Below, piece by piece: positions 8,669 to 19,805 of a stretch of DNA of 50,695 bases; the first letter of the stretch is position 1, and the number at the start of each line of letters is the position of its first letter. Source of the stretch: Hondaea fermentalgiana (Eukaryota > Sar > Bigyra > Thraustochytrida > Thraustochytriidae); contig NPFB01000052.1 of the NCBI GenBank assembly GCA_014084085.1, positions 286,161 through 336,855 on the forward strand, written 5' to 3'. The notes below the pieces were generated by a model that was given only the letters and a program-made list of their open reading frames with translations, was not told the origin of the DNA and ran no database searches. Position numbers and translations under genes: made by a program.

Positions 8669-11056
8669 TTACTCTTCCGAAATGGCCGAGGGAAAGTCAG
8701 TCTTGCCTTCCCATGTCCCCCAAGTTCCAAAGGGGAGATACTTGCAGGTGACACGCTGGTATTCCTTGTAGTTGTCGTAATTGAGAGCGCTCAGGTTTTC
8801 AGAAAATGTAGAGGAAAACGAAAACAGTACTCCAAGCATTAGAACTCCGCATGCAGACCAGTGCACAAGAGCATCCGGCAGCATCTCGCCATTCTGAACG
8901 CGCACATTGACAGAAAACAAGTAAAAGACAGTCCAGATGGCCTGCTCCGCTGCGTAGTTCGGGTGTCGGCAAAACGAGAAAAGCTGCGAGCTAAGAAAGC
9001 CTTCTCGCAGCGCAGGAGGCTTGCATGATTCGCTTAGATCCTCGTATTCGCTTTTGACCTCCTGGAACTTCTGGTGCTGCTCGTCTGCAATCATTTCCAC
9101 AACAGTTAGGCCGACCATCCAGCAAGAAAGGACGAAATCCCAGCGATTAAGAGGCACGTCTACTCCCTCCTTCGCAGCCACGTACACGGGCAATGCTTGC
9201 GCCATCAACAACAGCTGCCCATATCCTGCGACGCAGACAAGGTCAAAGATGGCAAAGAAAAACGGGTAGTGTTCGCTCTGCATCAATTCGCGCACGCGTC
9301 TCCAGCGAAGGTTCTCGCCACTTTTTGAGCTGTATGCTCCAGTACGCATGAGGTGAAGGCACATGCGACCCCCCCAGATACTCACCAAAAATGCCATGAG
9401 CAAGGTTCTGGCGTTCATCGGGATCGCGCAAACCTCAATGGTCCAGGCGTAAACCACTGGCATGAGTCCCCAGAACTTGCCTGATTGAGACAGATTTCTC
9501 GTGAGCTCGGCCGAAACAAAGCAGGCAAGAACCATCGCAACGCAGACGACCACGCACGTGCGCAATCCATGGTCCGCGCCGCTGTCGCCCAGCTTCAAGT
9601 ACTCCCAAATCGGGGAGAAAAGGTCCATCAGGTTGTAAATTGGGCTGTCCTTACCACCGTCTTCACCATTAAGATGGTGCAGGACGTCGTTCGTATCCAC
9701 CTCCGTCGAGCTGTCAATCACGCTTTCTTGACCACTTTGAGCGAGGAGGCTTGCTGCGAGAGAAACTTGCGATACAGCCGCGCTGATCTGAGCGACCTTT
9801 TCATGCAAAAGGCCAGCCGAGGCGACCTCATCGTGAAGACAACTCGCAAACTCGCCCGTCTTGTTCATTTCGCGCCATGAAGCAATGTCAACGCTGTCAG
9901 CTTCATTCATGGCGAACACGCCCTCGTCGATCTCCCTATCTGCTTCCATGATGGTTGCCCCTTCCGCACTTCCAAAGCTGTCTTCTCCGAGACGTTCGAA
10001 CTCAACGCCATTAGTAGTGCTCTTATCCGGCGCGCTGGTCAAGTTCGCCTCTTCCAGCTTCACCTCAATCATGGTCTCAATCTCGGTCGAGTTGACGTGG
10101 TCTTCCTCCAAGCCTCCCTCTTTCATCCCCTCGGTTGTCGAATCGCCAACTTCACTTTCAGTTCCTGCTTGGTCAAAACTTTCATCAACTCCAGTCTCGC
10201 TGATGTTGCTCGCCTTCTCGATTTGATCATCATCTTTGATGTTGTCTTTATCTGCAGCCTGGTCCTTGAACTGCTCCTCGATTTGTTCGCCGACCTTGTT
10301 CTCAACCTGGCCCTCGATCAGCTTTTCAGCTTGCTCATCGACCTTGTCCTTGACCTTGTTCTCAATCATGTCTTCAGTCTGCTCCTTGGACTGAAGTTCG
10401 GCTTGATCTTCGACTTGTTCGTCGACCTTGCTTTCAAACTGGCCCTCGATCAAGATTCCTGTCTGGTTCTCGACCTTGTCCTCGACCTTGTCCTCGACCT
10501 TGTTCTCAATCATGTCTTCAGTCTGCTCCTTGGACTGAAGTTCGGCTTGATCTTCGACTTGTTCGTCGACCTTGCTTTCAAACTGGCCCTCGGTCAGGTT
10601 TCCAGTCTGGCTCTCGACCTTGATCTCGACCTCGTTCTCGACCTCGATCTTAACCATATCTTCAGTCTGCTCCTCAGCCTGGTCCTTCTGCTCCTCGACT
10701 TGGTCCTCAACTTGTTCGTTGACCTGGCTCTCGGTCATGTTTTCAGCTTGCTCCTCGACCTTGTTCTTAATCATGCCTTCCGTGTGTTCCCCAATTTGGC
10801 CCTCAGCCTGGTCCTTGATCTGCTCCTTGGTCTGCTCCGCGGCTTGTTCCTCGACCTTGCTCTCAATCTGGCCATCATCTCCGTCGGTATCGTTGCTCAC
10901 CATCTCGCCTGGTGTTCCTTCTTGCTCCGTAAGAGTTGTAGTAGCAATCTCAGCCTTCACTTCTGTGAAAGAAATCTCGGAAGCCACAACGGAATGTTTG
11001 GACTCCTCCACAAATTTATCATTTGCGGTGAGAATGTCTCCGGACACTTCACCCAT
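8669..11056 (-). CDS. DUF1295 membrane protein with long acidic repeat extension
   Basis: 795 aa. The C-terminal part (about 480-795) is a multi-pass membrane domain of the DUF1295 family, related to the steroid 5-alpha-reductase and isoprenylcysteine methyltransferase fold. Diagnostic pieces are GLMPVVYAW, LNRWDF, IADEQHQKFQ, and the loop FCRHPNYAAEQ at about 695-705. Family members are suspected NAD(P)H-dependent lipid reductases; no substrate is proven. The N-terminal part (about 60-290) is a Glu/Gln/Lys/Val repeat region (units such as KVEDQVEEQ) likely to form coiled coil, followed by an acidic linker. It includes a 48-residue tandem duplication. The shorter neighbour at 13257-14234 lacks all of this extension. 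Transcribed in the same direction as that paralogue. ATG at 11056; the frame is uninterrupted. Confidence 0.8.
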   Translation of the reverse strand: MGEVSGDILTANDKFVEESKHSVVASEISFTEVKAEIATTTLTEQEGTPGEMVSNDTDGDDGQIESKVEEQAAEQTKEQIKDQAEGQIGEHTEGMIKNKVEEQAENMTESQVNEQVEDQVEEQKDQAEEQTEDMVKIEVENEVEIKVESQTGNLTEGQFESKVDEQVEDQAELQSKEQTEDMIENKVEDKVEDKVENQTGILIEGQFESKVDEQVEDQAELQSKEQTEDMIENKVKDKVDEQAEKLIEGQVENKVGEQIEEQFKDQAADKDNIKDDDQIEKASNISETGVDESFDQAGTESEVGDSTTEGMKEGGLEEDHVNSTEIETMIEVKLEEANLTSAPDKSTTNGVEFERLGEDSFGSAEGATIMEADREIDEGVFAMNEADSVDIASWREMNKTGEFASCLHDEVASAGLLHEKVAQISAAVSQVSLAASLLAQSGQESVIDSSTEVDTNDVLHHLNGEDGGKDSPIYNLMDLFSPIWEYLKLGDSGADHGLRTCVVVCVAMVLACFVSAELTRNLSQSGKFWGLMPVVYAWTIEVCAIPMNARTLLMAFLVSIWGGRMCLHLMRTGAYSSKSGENLRWRRVRELMQSEHYPFFFAIFDLVCVAGYGQLLLMAQALPVYVAAKEGVDVPLNRWDFVLSCWMVGLTVVEMIADEQHQKFQEVKSEYEDLSESCKPPALREGFLSSQLFSFCRHPNYAAEQAIWTVFYLFSVNVRVQNGEMLPDALVHWSACGVLMLGVLFSFSSTFSENLSALNYDNYKEYQRVTCKYLPFGTWGTWEGKTDFPSAISEE
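10361..10610 (-). repeat. 144-base internal tandem duplication
   Basis: The sequence beginning CTCAATCATGTCTTCAGTCT at 10361 recurs at 10505 with near identity for roughly 90 bases, giving a 144-base (48-codon) period within the acidic repeat region. The near identity points to a recent unequal duplication that kept the frame. Confidence 0.85.
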
Positions 11057-13256: not shown

Positions 13257-14234
13257 TTAAGGCGAGTACTCTGCAGGGAAATCAGTCTTGCCCTCCCAGG
13301 TGCCCCACGTTCCAAAGGGGAAAAACATCCACGTTGTGCGCTGATACTCCTTGTAGTTTTCGTACTTTTTGGCGCTCAGACTCTCTGAAAAGAGTGCGGA
13401 AGGTGTAAAGAGCGAGACTAGCATCACCCAGCCAAACATTGACCAGTGAATCAGGGCTTGGGGCAAGGGCTCGCCGTTCTGCACGCGAACGTTGACAGAA
13501 AAGAGGTAGAAAACGATCCAAATCGCCTGCTCCGCCGCGTAGTTCGGGTGCCGGCACAGCGAGAAGAGCTGCGAGCTGAAAAATCCGTCTCGGAGCGCAG
13601 GCGGCTTGCTCGAGTCGCGCAGACGCTCGTGCTTGTTCTTTTCATTCTGAAATGCCTGGTGCTGCTCGTCCGCCATGGACTCGATCGCGATCAAGGCCAA
13701 AACGCCCAGGGTGATGGCAAAGTCCCAGCGATTCAGCGGCACGTTCGCGCCTTCCTTTGCGACTACGAACACAGGCATAGCTTGGCCCAAGAGAATAACG
13801 TGGCAGTAGCCCGCAATGAAAAGCAAGTCAAAGAGCACAAAGAGGAAAGGGTACTGTCCTTGATGCAGCAACTTGCGCACGTGCACCCAGCGATAGTCCT
13901 CCCGGCCTTCCCAGGGCGGCCAGCTGTAGCCCCCATGACGGGTGAAGTTAAGCGTGAGCCGGGTTCCCCAAATGGTCGCCAACAAGGCCATCAGCAGCGT
14001 CCTCGCGTTCGACATGTTCGAGTAAATCTCGATCACCCAGGCATATACTACAGGCATGATGCTCCACAACTTGTCCGTCTGCGACAAGTTGTCCGTGAGC
14101 TCTGCGGTCACAAAGCACACCGCGATCGTGGACATGCAGATGAACGCGCACATCCGCAGGCCATCGTCCGCGCCGGTGTCGCTCAGACCGAGGTACTTGG
14201 CCAAGCCGGGGAAGGCCTCGTCAAAGGGCGTCAT
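13257..14234 (-). CDS. DUF1295 membrane protein, short paralogue
   Basis: 325 aa from ATG 14234 (MTPFDEAFPG). An upstream extension of the frame is Arg-rich with no ATG and is treated as leader. Membrane domain of the DUF1295 family, related to steroid 5-alpha-reductases, with LWSIMPVVYAW, LNRWDF, ADEQHQAFQ and LCRHPNYAAEQ at about 225. It aligns along its whole length with the C-terminal domain of the protein at 8669-11056; in one 43-residue stretch around the RHPNY motif 38 positions match. Both end with GTWGTWEGKTDFP. Predicted to sit in the ER membrane and reduce or modify a lipid; this rests on family knowledge only. The pair is clearly a tandem duplication, and only the other copy has the acidic extension. 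Confidence 0.85.
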   Translation of the reverse strand: MTPFDEAFPGLAKYLGLSDTGADDGLRMCAFICMSTIAVCFVTAELTDNLSQTDKLWSIMPVVYAWVIEIYSNMSNARTLLMALLATIWGTRLTLNFTRHGGYSWPPWEGREDYRWVHVRKLLHQGQYPFLFVLFDLLFIAGYCHVILLGQAMPVFVVAKEGANVPLNRWDFAITLGVLALIAIESMADEQHQAFQNEKNKHERLRDSSKPPALRDGFFSSQLFSLCRHPNYAAEQAIWIVFYLFSVNVRVQNGEPLPQALIHWSMFGWVMLVSLFTPSALFSESLSAKKYENYKEYQRTTWMFFPFGTWGTWEGKTDFPAEYSP

Positions 14235-14890
14235 CTTCTGCCCCGCTCGCTGCCGGTCTCGCCTCCTTTCCTTCGCGTCCGCGCTCTCGCTCCGGAGCCG
14301 CCTGCGTGCCACGCGTGCCTCTCGCTGCGTCCTCGCGCTCGCGTCCTCTTGCCCTCCCGCGCCTCGCGCTTGCGGACAGCTCCTCTCCAATCGCGGTCTG
14401 CCGCGGCGAAGCTCTGCTCGCAAGATCTCGCCGCGCTCATTTTCCAGAGGAAACGAGGAAAAAAAAAAAACGTTCGTGGGAAAAACCAGGGGGCTCTAGG
14501 GCTTGGGTAGGGCCTCGGCAGCGGAAGATGGACACTCTGCGTGGAAAATTCTGGACGGAGCGCGATCGCGAGATCGCGGGTCTCGCCGCTCTTGACAAGA
14601 GTGCGTTCGAGGTGCTTCGATCAGCAGGATAAAAAAAATCTCGACATTTCCCTCTGAGAAAGCACGTTCACTACATTGCCTTGATGAAGAGAGGGGGCGC
14701 CGTTTCGTGTTGTTCTGGACGGTCGAGGGACGCGCAGTGATTACTGGCAAAGAGCGAGCTGATGTCTTTGACATCGTCAGAAATTTCGCACAGGGGAAAT
14801 AATGTAATAAGACGGCAACAAAATCGACCACACCCATCATTGTATGCGCAAGCAATTTATAAAAAAGGAGGGGGGGGGGAATGCCGACCC
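14235..14890. other. Intergenic between DUF1295 short and NAT9-OvoA fusion
   Basis: Leader of the minus-strand DUF1295 gene (GC-rich, 14235-14500) and 3' flank of the fusion gene. An A run at 14459-14470 and a G run near 14871-14879 are the only notable points. No gene seen. Confidence 0.6.
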
Positions 14891-16315
14891 TTAGGCACTG
14901 CGACGACGAAATCCTAGCGCCTGGGAAACAATGTACTGGTACTTGCGCTCGTGCTCACGAATGAGCAATGGGACGTCTCGCACAAGAACACGTTCAAATC
15001 CTAGAGAATCCATGAGCGCAGTAACCTTTTCCTCGCCTGGGTCAAGCCACTTATCGCGAGGCGTAAAATTTTCCATCCAGGAATAAGGCGACACAATGAG
15101 AATCACACTCTGCGGCGCCATGAGAGACGATAGCTGCTGCAAGCAAGCTGCTGGATCTGGAAGCCTGCAAAGGAGGTTCGCAAGCAGTGCTGCATGGTAC
15201 GGAGCCGAGGTCGAGACAGCCGAGATTGCACCAAGATCACAAGCATCGCCGGTGGAGAACTCTACGCGCGCTCGGCGCACATTCGCATCGAGCTCTACCG
15301 CAATATTTCGGCTCTTACCTCCCTCGACCGCGAGGTGAAACTCACACTTTGCCCCGGAAAAGGCGTCGCGAAGTGCTTTTGCTCGAGCAATAAAGCTCGA
15401 TGATTTGTCAATTCCGAGTGCTTGCGCAAAGGTTTTGGAGAGTTCAAAGGAAGCCCCACCAACGGCACATCCAAGATCGAGAGCGCGCATTTTGGCCAGC
15501 GCTACTTTTCCGCCGAGTTCTTGGGCAGCGAGATCCGTCAAGAGCTGTGCGCAACGGACCGGAAAAGCCACTGCGTGCATCGGTGCGTTCTCGTGAGATC
15601 GCACACTTTGATCGCCACCAAAGTGAAGCGACATGTACTGGTCAACGAGCGTTGTCGTCTCGTACACGTCACTCTCAACATCGGTATCGAGCGCCAAGCA
15701 GAGCGCCGGCAACATTTTCATTGCTTCCTTGTCCGAGGCATTCCAATGAAGCTCGTGCTCCTCAAAGGCCTCTGCGTAAGCTACTCGTTTGTACCCCAGG
15801 GATTCAAACAGCGCCAAGGATGGGGCATTCGCAGCACCAATTTTGGCCACAAAACGCCCGAGCTTGAGCGCATCAATGCCGTAGCGCATCATGAGCAAGA
15901 GAGACTCACTAGCTAGTTTTTTGCGTCGCGCACTCTTTTCTGCAATCATGATCTCGATCTCGGCACTAGGGGGCGCTTTGCTATCGCTGCTGCCCTCCTC
16001 CCCGTCAGACGTTTCGTCACCCTCTTGCAAAAACAGGTTCGTGTCGCCGACCATCTTGTCCAAAACTTGCGAGTCAAGTGACATTGCATCTTCGCTCTCG
16101 CTCGCGTCCAAAATGATAAACGTGCACTTGGCGTCGTCATCGCGCCAGCTAGCCTGCATCTCGTACTCTTCCTCGACCGAGAGCGGCTCTGACGCGGTCG
16201 CCTCGAGAAGCGCCGGGTCCTTCATCCACTCGTGATACTTTTCTACATGTTGCCGTCGGTACGGCACAAGTACCACCCGCTTGCCGACAAGCCGCGTTTC
16301 CCAGTTCGTCCGCAT
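14891..16315 (-). CDS. NAT9-type acetyltransferase fused to OvoA-type 4-mercaptohistidine N-methyltransferase
   Basis: 474 aa, one continuous frame, ATG 16315. Residues about 8-200 match NAT9 (GNAT fold): LVGKRVVLVPYRRQHVEKYH, ATASEPLSVEEEYEMQASW, CTFIILD, GDTNLF, EIEIMIAEKSARRKKLASES and AKIGAANAPSLALFESLGY. An acidic loop (about 95-115) replaces part of the fold. Residues about 215-474 match the C-terminal methyltransferase of OvoA, which makes ovothiol from 4-mercaptohistidine with SAM. Seen are YETTTLVDQYMSLHFGG, FPVRC, the SAM loop RALDLGCAVGGASFELS at about 276, GDACDLG, LLANLLCRLPDP, SPYSWMENFTP, and a terminal LIREHERKYQYIVSQA. The FGE-like sulfoxide synthase and DinB domains of OvoA are absent. 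In the GNAT part the acetyl-CoA loop R-x-x-G-x-G/A reads RRKKLA, with Lys for the first Gly, so acetyl-transfer may be weak or lost. The fusion could methylate, and perhaps acetylate, a thiol-imidazole; that is inference. Fold assignments are strong. Confidence 0.87.
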   Translation of the reverse strand: MRTNWETRLVGKRVVLVPYRRQHVEKYHEWMKDPALLEATASEPLSVEEEYEMQASWRDDDAKCTFIILDASESEDAMSLDSQVLDKMVGDTNLFLQEGDETSDGEEGSSDSKAPPSAEIEIMIAEKSARRKKLASESLLLMMRYGIDALKLGRFVAKIGAANAPSLALFESLGYKRVAYAEAFEEHELHWNASDKEAMKMLPALCLALDTDVESDVYETTTLVDQYMSLHFGGDQSVRSHENAPMHAVAFPVRCAQLLTDLAAQELGGKVALAKMRALDLGCAVGGASFELSKTFAQALGIDKSSSFIARAKALRDAFSGAKCEFHLAVEGGKSRNIAVELDANVRRARVEFSTGDACDLGAISAVSTSAPYHAALLANLLCRLPDPAACLQQLSSLMAPQSVILIVSPYSWMENFTPRDKWLDPGEEKVTALMDSLGFERVLVRDVPLLIREHERKYQYIVSQALGFRRRSA

Positions 16316-16880: not shown

Positions 16881-19805
16881 TTACGTAAGTTCAAAGCCAA
16901 TGGCATGGTCGCAGGCAAAGAGCAGCTTGTCGCGGAGTTCATGTTCGGTCTCATAGGGGGGCAACACAAGCTGATGAAAACAAGTATGCGCAGTTGGCAG
17001 GGCTTCCTTGTCGAACTCGGATCGCGTCAACGTAAAAGGTAAAAGAGGCGAGAATCCATCCAAGGGAACGCGATCGCACCCCGTAGCAAAGCGGAGAACC
17101 CTTCCTCTATCCACCTGCGTAAGATCCGCAAAGACAGACCAGAACAGTTGCACGGGCTCAGACTCTACATCGTAGCCACCGCTGTATCGCACACAGCCAG
17201 AACGAAGGTCTTCAACGCTAATCTCTGTCTTGCCATTGAGCAAAAGCCGCATTTCTGATGGCGTAAAGTCACGCAATAATTCCATAGGAACAAGTGTCCG
17301 AAATCCCTCCATGAAAGCCTCCAAGAGACCACGCGCTGACCCGCCGCAATGCCAGTCCACAATCGCATCGACATATTCGATCTTGTTGTCATTCGACACA
17401 GGTATTGCAGCGCCTCCTGGGATAAGTTCAACCTCCTGATAGGCGCCAAACAGTTCCGAAGTGACCGTGAATGTCTCTTCAATAATGTCTTGAATGTCAT
17501 TTTCAAGCATCCACTCGAGACTCCGTGCAAGGACCGGATCTTTTTCACGCAGGTCGTCAAGACTTGGTCGACTGCCCACTGCACGACGCAACAACGCTGT
17601 GCAAAGGGGAGCGTTGACAAGCTGCTGATCAAAGAGTGCCTTACCGCATACAGCTCCAAAGATGCGAATGTACCTCGGTGCCTCCGGAACCAGCTTTCCA
17701 CGTGGGTCGAGTTCGTATTCACCACGCTCCGTTCGTGTAAAGAGGCAATAGTCGGGCTGCAGCATGGCGTTGCTAAATGCCAAGAACCAATCCTTGGAAA
17801 GTCCGCCAGAGTCGATCCCCGATTCTCCTTCAAAGACCACCTGCAATTTACTTTGGAGAGCTTCTATGCCAAACCTTTCGAGACGCACAAGAGAGTCTGC
17901 TACGAGATGGTCTCGTCGTATGCTGAGACGGAAAGCTGCAAGGGGATTCTCATTGGCAGCGGCCGCTTGCTCTTTGCGCGTCTTGTGCAAGTGATGCAAG
18001 AGACGAAACCTTTTCTTTCGGAAGAGTCGCCATTCGCGCTCCTGGCTTGTTTCGCTGGCGTGGCGCTCCACAAGACTCTTACGTGCGTCTGATGGGAGCC
18101 CTGTGGGTTTGTTCCACTGATTCTCTCCCGTGTACACATTGTAGTAAAAGAGCTCCTCAGACGCCGGGTCCCAGTACTCGTTCCATCCTTCGGGAAGATC
18201 GACCATGCCTTCGGGGCTTGCCAGGATTTCGTGCGTCTCGCCGCTGTCAGAAGCTGCTGCTGTGTCTACAACGAGGCCTTCTTGCATTTGGCCATGCTCG
18301 CGCGCATCTGCTGCGCTAGCAACGGCGGCGGCAAAGGCAATCTCCTCTGCCTCTTCGGCAGCAGTGGGAACCCGGACCCAGGTTGTCCGTCCGGGTTTGC
18401 TTTCGCCGAGTTCGTTCACAGCTAGAATATGAAACCCTATTCTCTGCCCTTGATCTGCTGCGGTGAAGTCATGGTCAAAGCTCGTTGTGTTTCCTTCAAA
18501 GACACATCGAACCTCCTCATCTTCCTCTGGTTCATGGCCATTGTCCAAAGAATCAGCATCACGTTGTCCTAGTGACTCGACAAAGACCCTGTAGCGTAGA
18601 ATCTGAGCTCCGCCGTCGCATAGTGGTGGTACCCACGAAAGACTGATGCCGTTACTCGTAAGATTCTGCGTTTCACAAGGAGACAATGGGACCGGAGGGC
18701 CACGTTGCGTCTTGATGGTGGCCTCTTTGCTCACGAACCGGCTATTGTAGCGCTTGTCGCCACGACTGAGGCCCATGGTTGTTTCGACGCGAAAAGAGTA
18801 TAAAGTACCAGGAAGAAGCGGCCGCTGTCCTCGTTGCCCAACTTGAGTGGCCGCGCAGCCCACTGTAGATTCAGTCGCGCCTCGACCACTATAAACACGA
18901 ATGTCTTCAAGGGAAGTGATGAATCCCGCGCTTGTGAGGTCGCCGAGGTTTTCAATAATATTACCATCCTCGCCCTGCGGTTCGCTGACGAGTCGTCGCA
19001 CAAAGACCTCGCTGCAAAGAATCTGCCCAAAGCAGGGCATGCGGGCATGCTCCGCCCAACTGACATCGACGCTATATGCCTCATCCTCGCGAAGACCAAG
19101 TACAGGCTTAGGCCGCGAGGTGGGAAGCGGCTGAAGTATTTCGCTTTGCGGGCTCCACTCGCCCCAGCCAACGGCGTGTCTTGCTCGAACGCGAAACACC
19201 AGCCCAGGACATGAGTCCGTGAGGCCACCCAAATAGACTTGGCGCTTGGCAACATCAACAGCGTCTTCCGGAAGTGAGGTCCACATGGAACCGTGCAATT
19301 GGACCTGGTGTTTGACGTCCGGGGAAACGTCGAGCGAGGCCCAAACTGCACAGATTTGGGACTCATGAGCAACCAAGAGCACTTCGACAACGGTAAGTTG
19401 CGCCTGCTTCTCCCCAGTCACGTACAAATAGTCCCAGCGGATGGTAATGGAAAATGTGGTCGTCACTTCGGCAGTCACCGGTTTGATGCGTAGCTCTTCG
19501 AGGATTCGTTCTTTTGGCTTGAGTTTGTTGAGTTGATCGAGAGACAATTTAGGGTGAGCAGCTTTGCGCTGCTGCGCATTGCGCTCTGCCATGGCCTCCA
19601 CGCGTTCTCGAATGACAGCATTTAGATCTCTCGTTGCCCCTGCTGCTATCGTTTCTGAGTTGTTGTTATTGCCTTGGCTGGCAGAGCTCCGCTCTTCGTC
19701 CCGTCTCGGCCCAGAGGTGTCATTGTTTCGATCCCCTTTCTTATTGTTCCCACTTGTTGCATTCCTGGCCTTGTACTTGGACGCCGCCGAGGCTGCAGCG
19801 CCCAT
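16881..19805 (-). CDS. HECT E3 ubiquitin ligase with FN3 and WW domains
   Basis: 974 aa, ATG 19805, no introns. A HECT E3 takes ubiquitin from an E2 onto a catalytic Cys and passes it to a lysine of the substrate. Order: an N-terminal MGAAASAAS that fits N-myristoylation (Gly2, Ser6); a polar Asn/Ser-rich stretch; three fibronectin type III-like domains at about 112-225, 236-361 and 368-475; an acidic Ala/Glu linker; one WW domain at about 538-568 (LPEGWNEYWDP to NQWNKPTG); and the HECT domain at about 635-974. HECT landmarks are GESGIDSGGLSKDW, FGAVCGKALFD, FTPSEMRLLLNG and the active-site TAHTCFHQL with Cys942, 32 residues from the end as usual. WW domains normally bind PPxY or pS/T-P motifs; the FN3 domains may recruit partners. 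The combination differs from NEDD4 (C2-WW-HECT), with FN3 and a lipid anchor in place of C2. Confidence 0.88.
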   Translation of the reverse strand: MGAAASAASKYKARNATSGNNKKGDRNNDTSGPRRDEERSSASQGNNNNSETIAAGATRDLNAVIRERVEAMAERNAQQRKAAHPKLSLDQLNKLKPKERILEELRIKPVTAEVTTTFSITIRWDYLYVTGEKQAQLTVVEVLLVAHESQICAVWASLDVSPDVKHQVQLHGSMWTSLPEDAVDVAKRQVYLGGLTDSCPGLVFRVRARHAVGWGEWSPQSEILQPLPTSRPKPVLGLREDEAYSVDVSWAEHARMPCFGQILCSEVFVRRLVSEPQGEDGNIIENLGDLTSAGFITSLEDIRVYSGRGATESTVGCAATQVGQRGQRPLLPGTLYSFRVETTMGLSRGDKRYNSRFVSKEATIKTQRGPPVPLSPCETQNLTSNGISLSWVPPLCDGGAQILRYRVFVESLGQRDADSLDNGHEPEEDEEVRCVFEGNTTSFDHDFTAADQGQRIGFHILAVNELGESKPGRTTWVRVPTAAEEAEEIAFAAAVASAADAREHGQMQEGLVVDTAAASDSGETHEILASPEGMVDLPEGWNEYWDPASEELFYYNVYTGENQWNKPTGLPSDARKSLVERHASETSQEREWRLFRKKRFRLLHHLHKTRKEQAAAANENPLAAFRLSIRRDHLVADSLVRLERFGIEALQSKLQVVFEGESGIDSGGLSKDWFLAFSNAMLQPDYCLFTRTERGEYELDPRGKLVPEAPRYIRIFGAVCGKALFDQQLVNAPLCTALLRRAVGSRPSLDDLREKDPVLARSLEWMLENDIQDIIEETFTVTSELFGAYQEVELIPGGAAIPVSNDNKIEYVDAIVDWHCGGSARGLLEAFMEGFRTLVPMELLRDFTPSEMRLLLNGKTEISVEDLRSGCVRYSGGYDVESEPVQLFWSVFADLTQVDRGRVLRFATGCDRVPLDGFSPLLPFTLTRSEFDKEALPTAHTCFHQLVLPPYETEHELRDKLLFACDHAIGFELT

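Follow-up and report, generated by a model that had tools for sequence, protein, structure and literature searches.

A NAT9-type acetyltransferase domain fused to an OvoA/OvoM-type methyltransferase in the thraustochytrid Hondaea fermentalgiana, a candidate second 5-thiohistidine N-methyltransferase

In a 50,695-nucleotide stretch of contig NPFB01000052.1 of the thraustochytrid Hondaea fermentalgiana (hereafter, the window), one gene encodes a NAT9-type GNAT domain followed by a methyltransferase domain of the OvoA/OvoM type. Sequence and structure comparisons establish that both folds lie in a single frame, that the methyltransferase motifs are retained, that a complete OvoA is encoded elsewhere in the genome, and that the fused methyltransferase groups with labyrinthulomycete-type OvoA. 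We tentatively propose, at somewhat less than an even chance, that the fusion is a second thraustochytrid 5-thiohistidine N-methyltransferase, i.e., a copy of the OvoA module placed behind a NAT9 half that would serve mainly as carrier or anchor, perhaps outside the mitochondrion.

On the minus strand, the region is a single ATG-to-stop frame of 474 amino acids (aa) plus stop; the plus strand read from position 14891 has seven stops. A preliminary description of this DNA had given the correct coordinates, leaving the strand unstated. Its claim that a NAT9-type GNAT and an OvoA-type methyltransferase share one frame is borne out by the frame itself and by matches to PF13302 and to the TIGR04345 domain, and the three motifs it quoted all occur in the translation. 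The features of the gene, with near-invariant columns defined over 88 OvoA/OvoM rows, are as follows.

14891..16315, minus strand: whole frame, NAT9-type GNAT joined to OvoA/OvoM-type methyltransferase, 474 aa plus stop
15788..16279, minus strand: GNAT (NAT9) domain, residues 13-176; PF13302, 57.3 bits (cut-off 25.4)
15911..15928, minus strand: acetyl-CoA loop R-R-K-K-L-A, residues 130-135, with the Gly of RxxGxA replaced by Lys
15917-15919, minus strand: the Lys at residue 133 that replaces the loop Gly, codon AAA
15665..15739, minus strand: linker, residues 193-217; mean predicted local distance difference test (pLDDT) score 65 in residues 211-220, above 90 on either side
14906..15664, minus strand: OvoA/OvoM-type methyltransferase domain, residues 218-470; TIGR04345 (ovoA_Cterm), 145.5 bits, E 1.9e-42
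15455..15481, minus strand: S-adenosylmethionine (SAM) loop LDLGCAVGG, residues 279-287; near-invariant columns 279, 280 and 282-286 kept
15152..15178, minus strand: motif NLLCRLPDP, residues 380-388; all eight near-invariant columns (380-386, 388) kept
15059..15091, minus strand: motif SPYSWMENFTP, residues 409-419; near-invariant P410, W413 and T418 kept
14933..14962, minus strand: motif IREHERKYQY, residues 452-461; near-invariant I452, R453, E454, H455, R457 and K458 kept

The role of LDLGCAVGG as the SAM loop is one that we take as established knowledge of the fold. The only full-length locus of the fusion in its own 36.0 Mb assembly is G000:C186:301054-302475.

Three observations indicate that the fusion is not a chance product. 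Firstly, a phmmer search with the fusion protein yields E values of 7.1e-45 against 7ovu and 7.1e-31 against OvsM 9bxh. Secondly, its AlphaFold model has a mean pLDDT of 92.6. Thirdly, the same fusion, sought in relatives among 221 proteins (the best 120 of 349 and the best 120 of 1454 matches in two protein searches, query included), recurs: seven of these proteins, including that of the window, hold both halves in the same order. The six relatives are 70% (P0002), 47% (P0003), 46% (P0004), 43% (P0005, whose N-terminus is absent from the listed sequence), 35% (P0008), and 32% (P0074) identical to the window protein. P0003 and P0004 bear the JGI name 'RimJ/RimL family protein N-acetyltransferase/SAM-dependent methyltransferase', and P0074 carries an MMETSP transcript name, placing both halves in one transcript, though its methyltransferase has decayed. 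Judged from these sequences, the fusion is a protein family rather than an accident of a single contig. The earlier statement that no protein of this make-up is known to have been described stands within the open-access literature matches listed, where we found no description of a NAT9/OvoA-methyltransferase fusion; both parts were known already, and what is new, as far as these matches go, is their combination.

The window methyltransferase retains 41 of 44 near-invariant columns (each with one residue in at least 90% of the 88 non-fusion OvoA/OvoM rows) and shares the fold of solved OvoM, OvsM, and OvoA structures. The same columns are kept at 41 positions in P0002, 42 in P0003 and in P0004, 40 in P0005, 25 in P0008, and 21 in P0074; in the latter two, the motif IREHERKYQY is partly broken. 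Even so, P0008 (79.7 bits) and P0074 (52.6 bits) still match a profile of OvoA/OvoM-type methyltransferases; against that profile, only one of ten shuffled controls was listed (-1.5 bits), and P0119 reached 0.3 bits with its TPMT half. Methyltransferases of the OvoA family separate from the synthase are known, namely the bacterial 5-thiohistidine N-methyltransferase OvoM of Sulfuricurvum (9bxl/9bxm/9bxn) and 5-selenohistidine N-methyltransferase OvsM of Marinimicrobium koreense (9bxh/9bxj/9bxk); unlike the window protein, both are without a NAT9 half. The domain also differs from the C-terminal module of OvoA (OvoA_Th2, PDB 8khq; TIGR04345) in that it does not stand behind a sulfoxide synthase.

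The genome encodes a full OvoA in one 895-aa frame on contig C27, with synthase (TIGR04344) scores of 580-582 bits against a cut-off of 400 and methyltransferase (TIGR04345) scores of 180-184 bits against a cut-off of 170. This frame is 100% identical, across 97% of its length, to a Hondaea fermentalgiana protein annotated as sulfatase-modifying factor 1. The fusion protein itself gives no TIGR04344 match at E up to 1. Hence, the description 'without the sulfoxide synthase' applies to the fusion protein and not to the genome, in which the synthase resides in the C27 OvoA. A split ovothiol pathway with a stand-alone synthase, suggested earlier, is rejected: besides the full OvoA, TIGR04344 finds in this genome only one match, scoring 39.5 bits, in a PF03781 protein that belongs to the FGE-sulfatase type, and no stand-alone FGE-like sulfoxide synthase. 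Separately, two further OvoA-type proteins, P0295 (1237 aa) and P0332 (1249 aa), also carry PF01594, presumably the AI-2E transporter domain, and may represent an ovothiol enzyme fused to a membrane transporter.

The origin of the fused methyltransferase was assessed in a tree of 61 rows hand-chosen from 340 proteins. Nine rows were labelled labyrinthulomycete, P0222, P0227, and P0229 by name and the others by similarity. The five intact fused domains form one group (support 99/91) nested in a 19-row set (99/96), the remainder of which comprises the nine labyrinthulomycete-type OvoA (Hondaea, Mucochytrium, and Aplanochytrium being named) and five further rows. A careful 92-row tree concurs, placing the fusions in one group with P0167 and the OvoA encoded in the same genome (98/91). 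P0074, P0008, and P0110 were left out of both trees; in a quick tree, all seven fusions form one group (95) with extreme branches for P0074 (5.54) and P0008 (4.25). Holding the fusions together with ten mostly stand-alone OvoM rows, a set chosen after earlier trees had been viewed (P0042, P0024, P0034, P0029, P0048, P0058, P0069, P0065, P0076, and P0107; two rows have green-algal names, and P0024 has 403 aa), was rejected by the approximately unbiased test (p-AU 0.001). Keeping the 14 OvoA-type rows as one group that excludes the fusions was not rejected (p-AU 0.198). Given these groupings and tests, the fused methyltransferase is best read as a duplicated OvoA module of its own lineage, sister to or within labyrinthulomycete-type OvoA. 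On the NAT9 side, the GNAT tree requires three changes for the fusion, of which well-supported branches force only one, and does not demonstrate a single fusion origin.

For the GNAT half, 121 rows (E 1e-5, span of 120 residues) were aligned from 134 proteins matching at E 1e-3, and 56 columns were at least 85% conserved in the 114 non-fusion NAT9 rows. The window protein has the NAT9 fold, begins like NAT9 from residue 1, and retains 54 of these columns, the two exceptions being V92T and G133K. In these respects it resembles the NAT9 of Arabidopsis (7ovu, 45% identity), Drosophila (Mnat9), and human. It differs from them in its added C-terminal methyltransferase and in G133K, which turns the acetyl-CoA loop Q/RxxGxG/A into RxxKxA. 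The loop Gly is present at this position in 113 of the 114 non-fusion rows, with Lys in the remaining one. Passages of PMC10382493 report that this motif of Drosophila Mnat9 is critical for N-terminal acetylation in vitro on tubulin peptides, that Mnat9 mutated to AxxAxA keeps its neuroprotective effect, and that the role of human NAT9 is not clear. Because of the RxxKxA loop, we call the window GNAT NAT9-type or NAT9-derived rather than a working NAT9; acetyl transfer by it is probably weak or lost. A sequencing error could account for the Lys at codon 133, although the change from Gly to AAA requires at least two base changes. No second NAT9 was found in the genome (next match at E 1.52, maximum E 10), although a divergent or intron-split copy could escape a search of this kind, which ignores introns and scores top candidates only; the NAT9 of the fusion thus appears to be the only one in the cell.

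The mechanism that we tentatively favor begins with the methyltransferase module of OvoA being copied and joined behind NAT9. OvoA would act in the mitochondrion, by analogy with the diatom enzyme, reported as mitochondrial in passages of PMC9890322, and the fusion, which begins at a plain NAT9 N-terminus, would act outside it. There, it may methylate the imidazole nitrogen of 5-thiohistidine, or of its seleno analogue, with SAM, while the NAT9 half would mainly carry the enzyme or anchor it, for instance on tubulin. The basic N-terminal extensions of several thraustochytrid-type OvoA, judged by eye, hint at such a difference in compartment: the first 35 residues of six OvoA rows (the own frame, P0223, P0225, P0227, P0229, and P0230) contain 6–9 Lys plus Arg and 0–2 Asp plus Glu.

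Several observations weigh against this proposal. The same N-terminal stretch of three fusion rows also contains 6–8 Lys plus Arg, with 2–5 Asp plus Glu, so that acidic rather than basic residues set the two apart; the annotated Hondaea OvoA, P0222, starts 30 residues later and has four basic and two acidic residues; and the N-termini of P0226 and P0228 are short and differ in kind. The loop Gly is present in P0002 and the five other fusions, so a scaffold role alone fails for the fusion family as a whole. P0008 and P0074 retain the GNAT beside a broken methyltransferase, so the methyltransferase is dispensable in some carriers. Finally, the window domain, though matched in whole, falls short of the curated TIGR04345 cut-off of 170 bits, as do the five intact fusions collectively (137–150 bits, compared with 180–184 bits for the genome's OvoA). 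We therefore call it a paralogue and not an equivalog, and its earlier placement in the OvoA methyltransferase family holds by the conserved columns and the fold, not by the equivalog score.

NAT9 has other partners as well. Listed NAT9 proteins also carry TPMT (P0119), Methyltransf_16 (P0193, P0209), MTS (P0059), kinesin (P0037, P0101), or a weak TPR match (P0056). For six of these seven proteins, 'ena' and 'lgn' are the sole sources, which means that run-on gene models may be among them. With partners this varied, a pathway common to NAT9 and its partner is less safely inferred. As side observations, P0120 resembles P0059 without matching any methyltransferase model at E 0.001, and in P0037 and P0101 the NAT9-type GNAT lies ahead of the kinesin motor domain, an arrangement that fits the reported link of NAT9 to microtubules.

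Joining to such unrelated domains would also be expected if the methyltransferase were a decaying passenger, duplicated, attached to NAT9 by accident, and being lost while selection acts on NAT9. We regard this as unlikely, though the likeliest of the alternatives. It accords with the 51 (P0008) and 40 (P0074, N-terminus truncated) of 56 NAT9 columns kept, compared with 25 and 21 of 44 methyltransferase columns, and with the better conservation of the GNAT (148/183) than of the methyltransferase (168/257) between the window protein and P0002. However, 40 to 42 of the 44 methyltransferase columns are intact in five of the seven fusions, four of which are only 43–70% identical to the window protein, in which the altered part is the GNAT loop. 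By sequence, damage within the family falls on either side, i.e., on the GNAT loop in the window and on the methyltransferase in P0008 and P0074.

It is less probable that the methyltransferase half has been redirected to proteins, methylating histidine or the N-terminus of NAT9 targets (e.g., the N-terminus of tubulin). Almost every position that is near-invariant in the small-molecule enzymes is kept, and under the thresholds used there is a single fusion-specific conserved change, Ala to Ser at residue 293.

We give only a small chance to the fusion being a tailoring enzyme beyond ovothiol A, yielding alpha-N-methylated ovothiol (B/C) or, in fusions with an intact loop, N-acetyl, N-methyl 5-thiohistidine. 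Were this so, the NAT9 of these protists would have been turned to small-molecule work, and N-acetyl, N-methyl 5-thiohistidine would be a thiol without description in the literature found. The specific case of an ovothiol alpha-N-methyltransferase is slightly more doubtful. Where a full OvoA is already present, an additional methyltransferase of its type is a candidate, given that the diatom P. tricornutum contains ovothiol B (in passages of PMC9890322) and that the enzyme of the ovothiol B step is given as 'unknown MT' (in passages of PMC12631010). Against this, the column comparison revealed no pocket change peculiar to the fusions that could reverse the orientation of the substrate, and no open-access paper that we found treats ovothiol and Labyrinthulomycetes together.

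The least probable reading is the original one, of a bifunctional enzyme that adds both a methyl and an acetyl group to the same thiol-imidazole, yielding a doubly modified thiol, in a split pathway: it is in line with the two domains in a single chain, the loop Gly kept in six of seven fusions, and the existence of 5THNAT, a GNAT of Proteiniphilum that acetylates a 5-thiohistidine nitrogen, but conflicts with the full OvoA in the genome, the 54 of 56 ordinary NAT9 columns of the fused GNAT, and G133K in the window species. The passages of PMC12631010 that describe 5THNAT link it, like the fusion, to 5-thiohistidine chemistry; unlike the fusion, it is a separate gene neighboring a bacterial OvoA, competes with methylation, and leaves ovothiol A unmodified. 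They give its acceptor pocket as Glu119, Arg153, and Trp155 and liken it to the human amino-terminal acetyltransferase 3TFY, not to NAT9. The suggestion of an acetyl-modified thiol is weakened accordingly.

Other reading frames surround the fusion gene on the minus strand. Directly upstream, 16881-19805 is a frame of the ubiquitin ligase type that combines fn3, WW, and HECT domains; on the 3' side, two frames, 13257-14423 and 8669-11056, both carry the DUF1295 domain.

A eukaryotic protein that joins NAT9 to a duplicate of the methyltransferase of the last ovothiol step would be a new object for ovothiol research. It bears on whether ovothiol methylation is carried out by two enzymes, whether a dedicated enzyme for ovothiol B exists, and whether NAT9 has a role that does not involve acetyl transfer, all in organisms, the thraustochytrids, that can be grown in culture.
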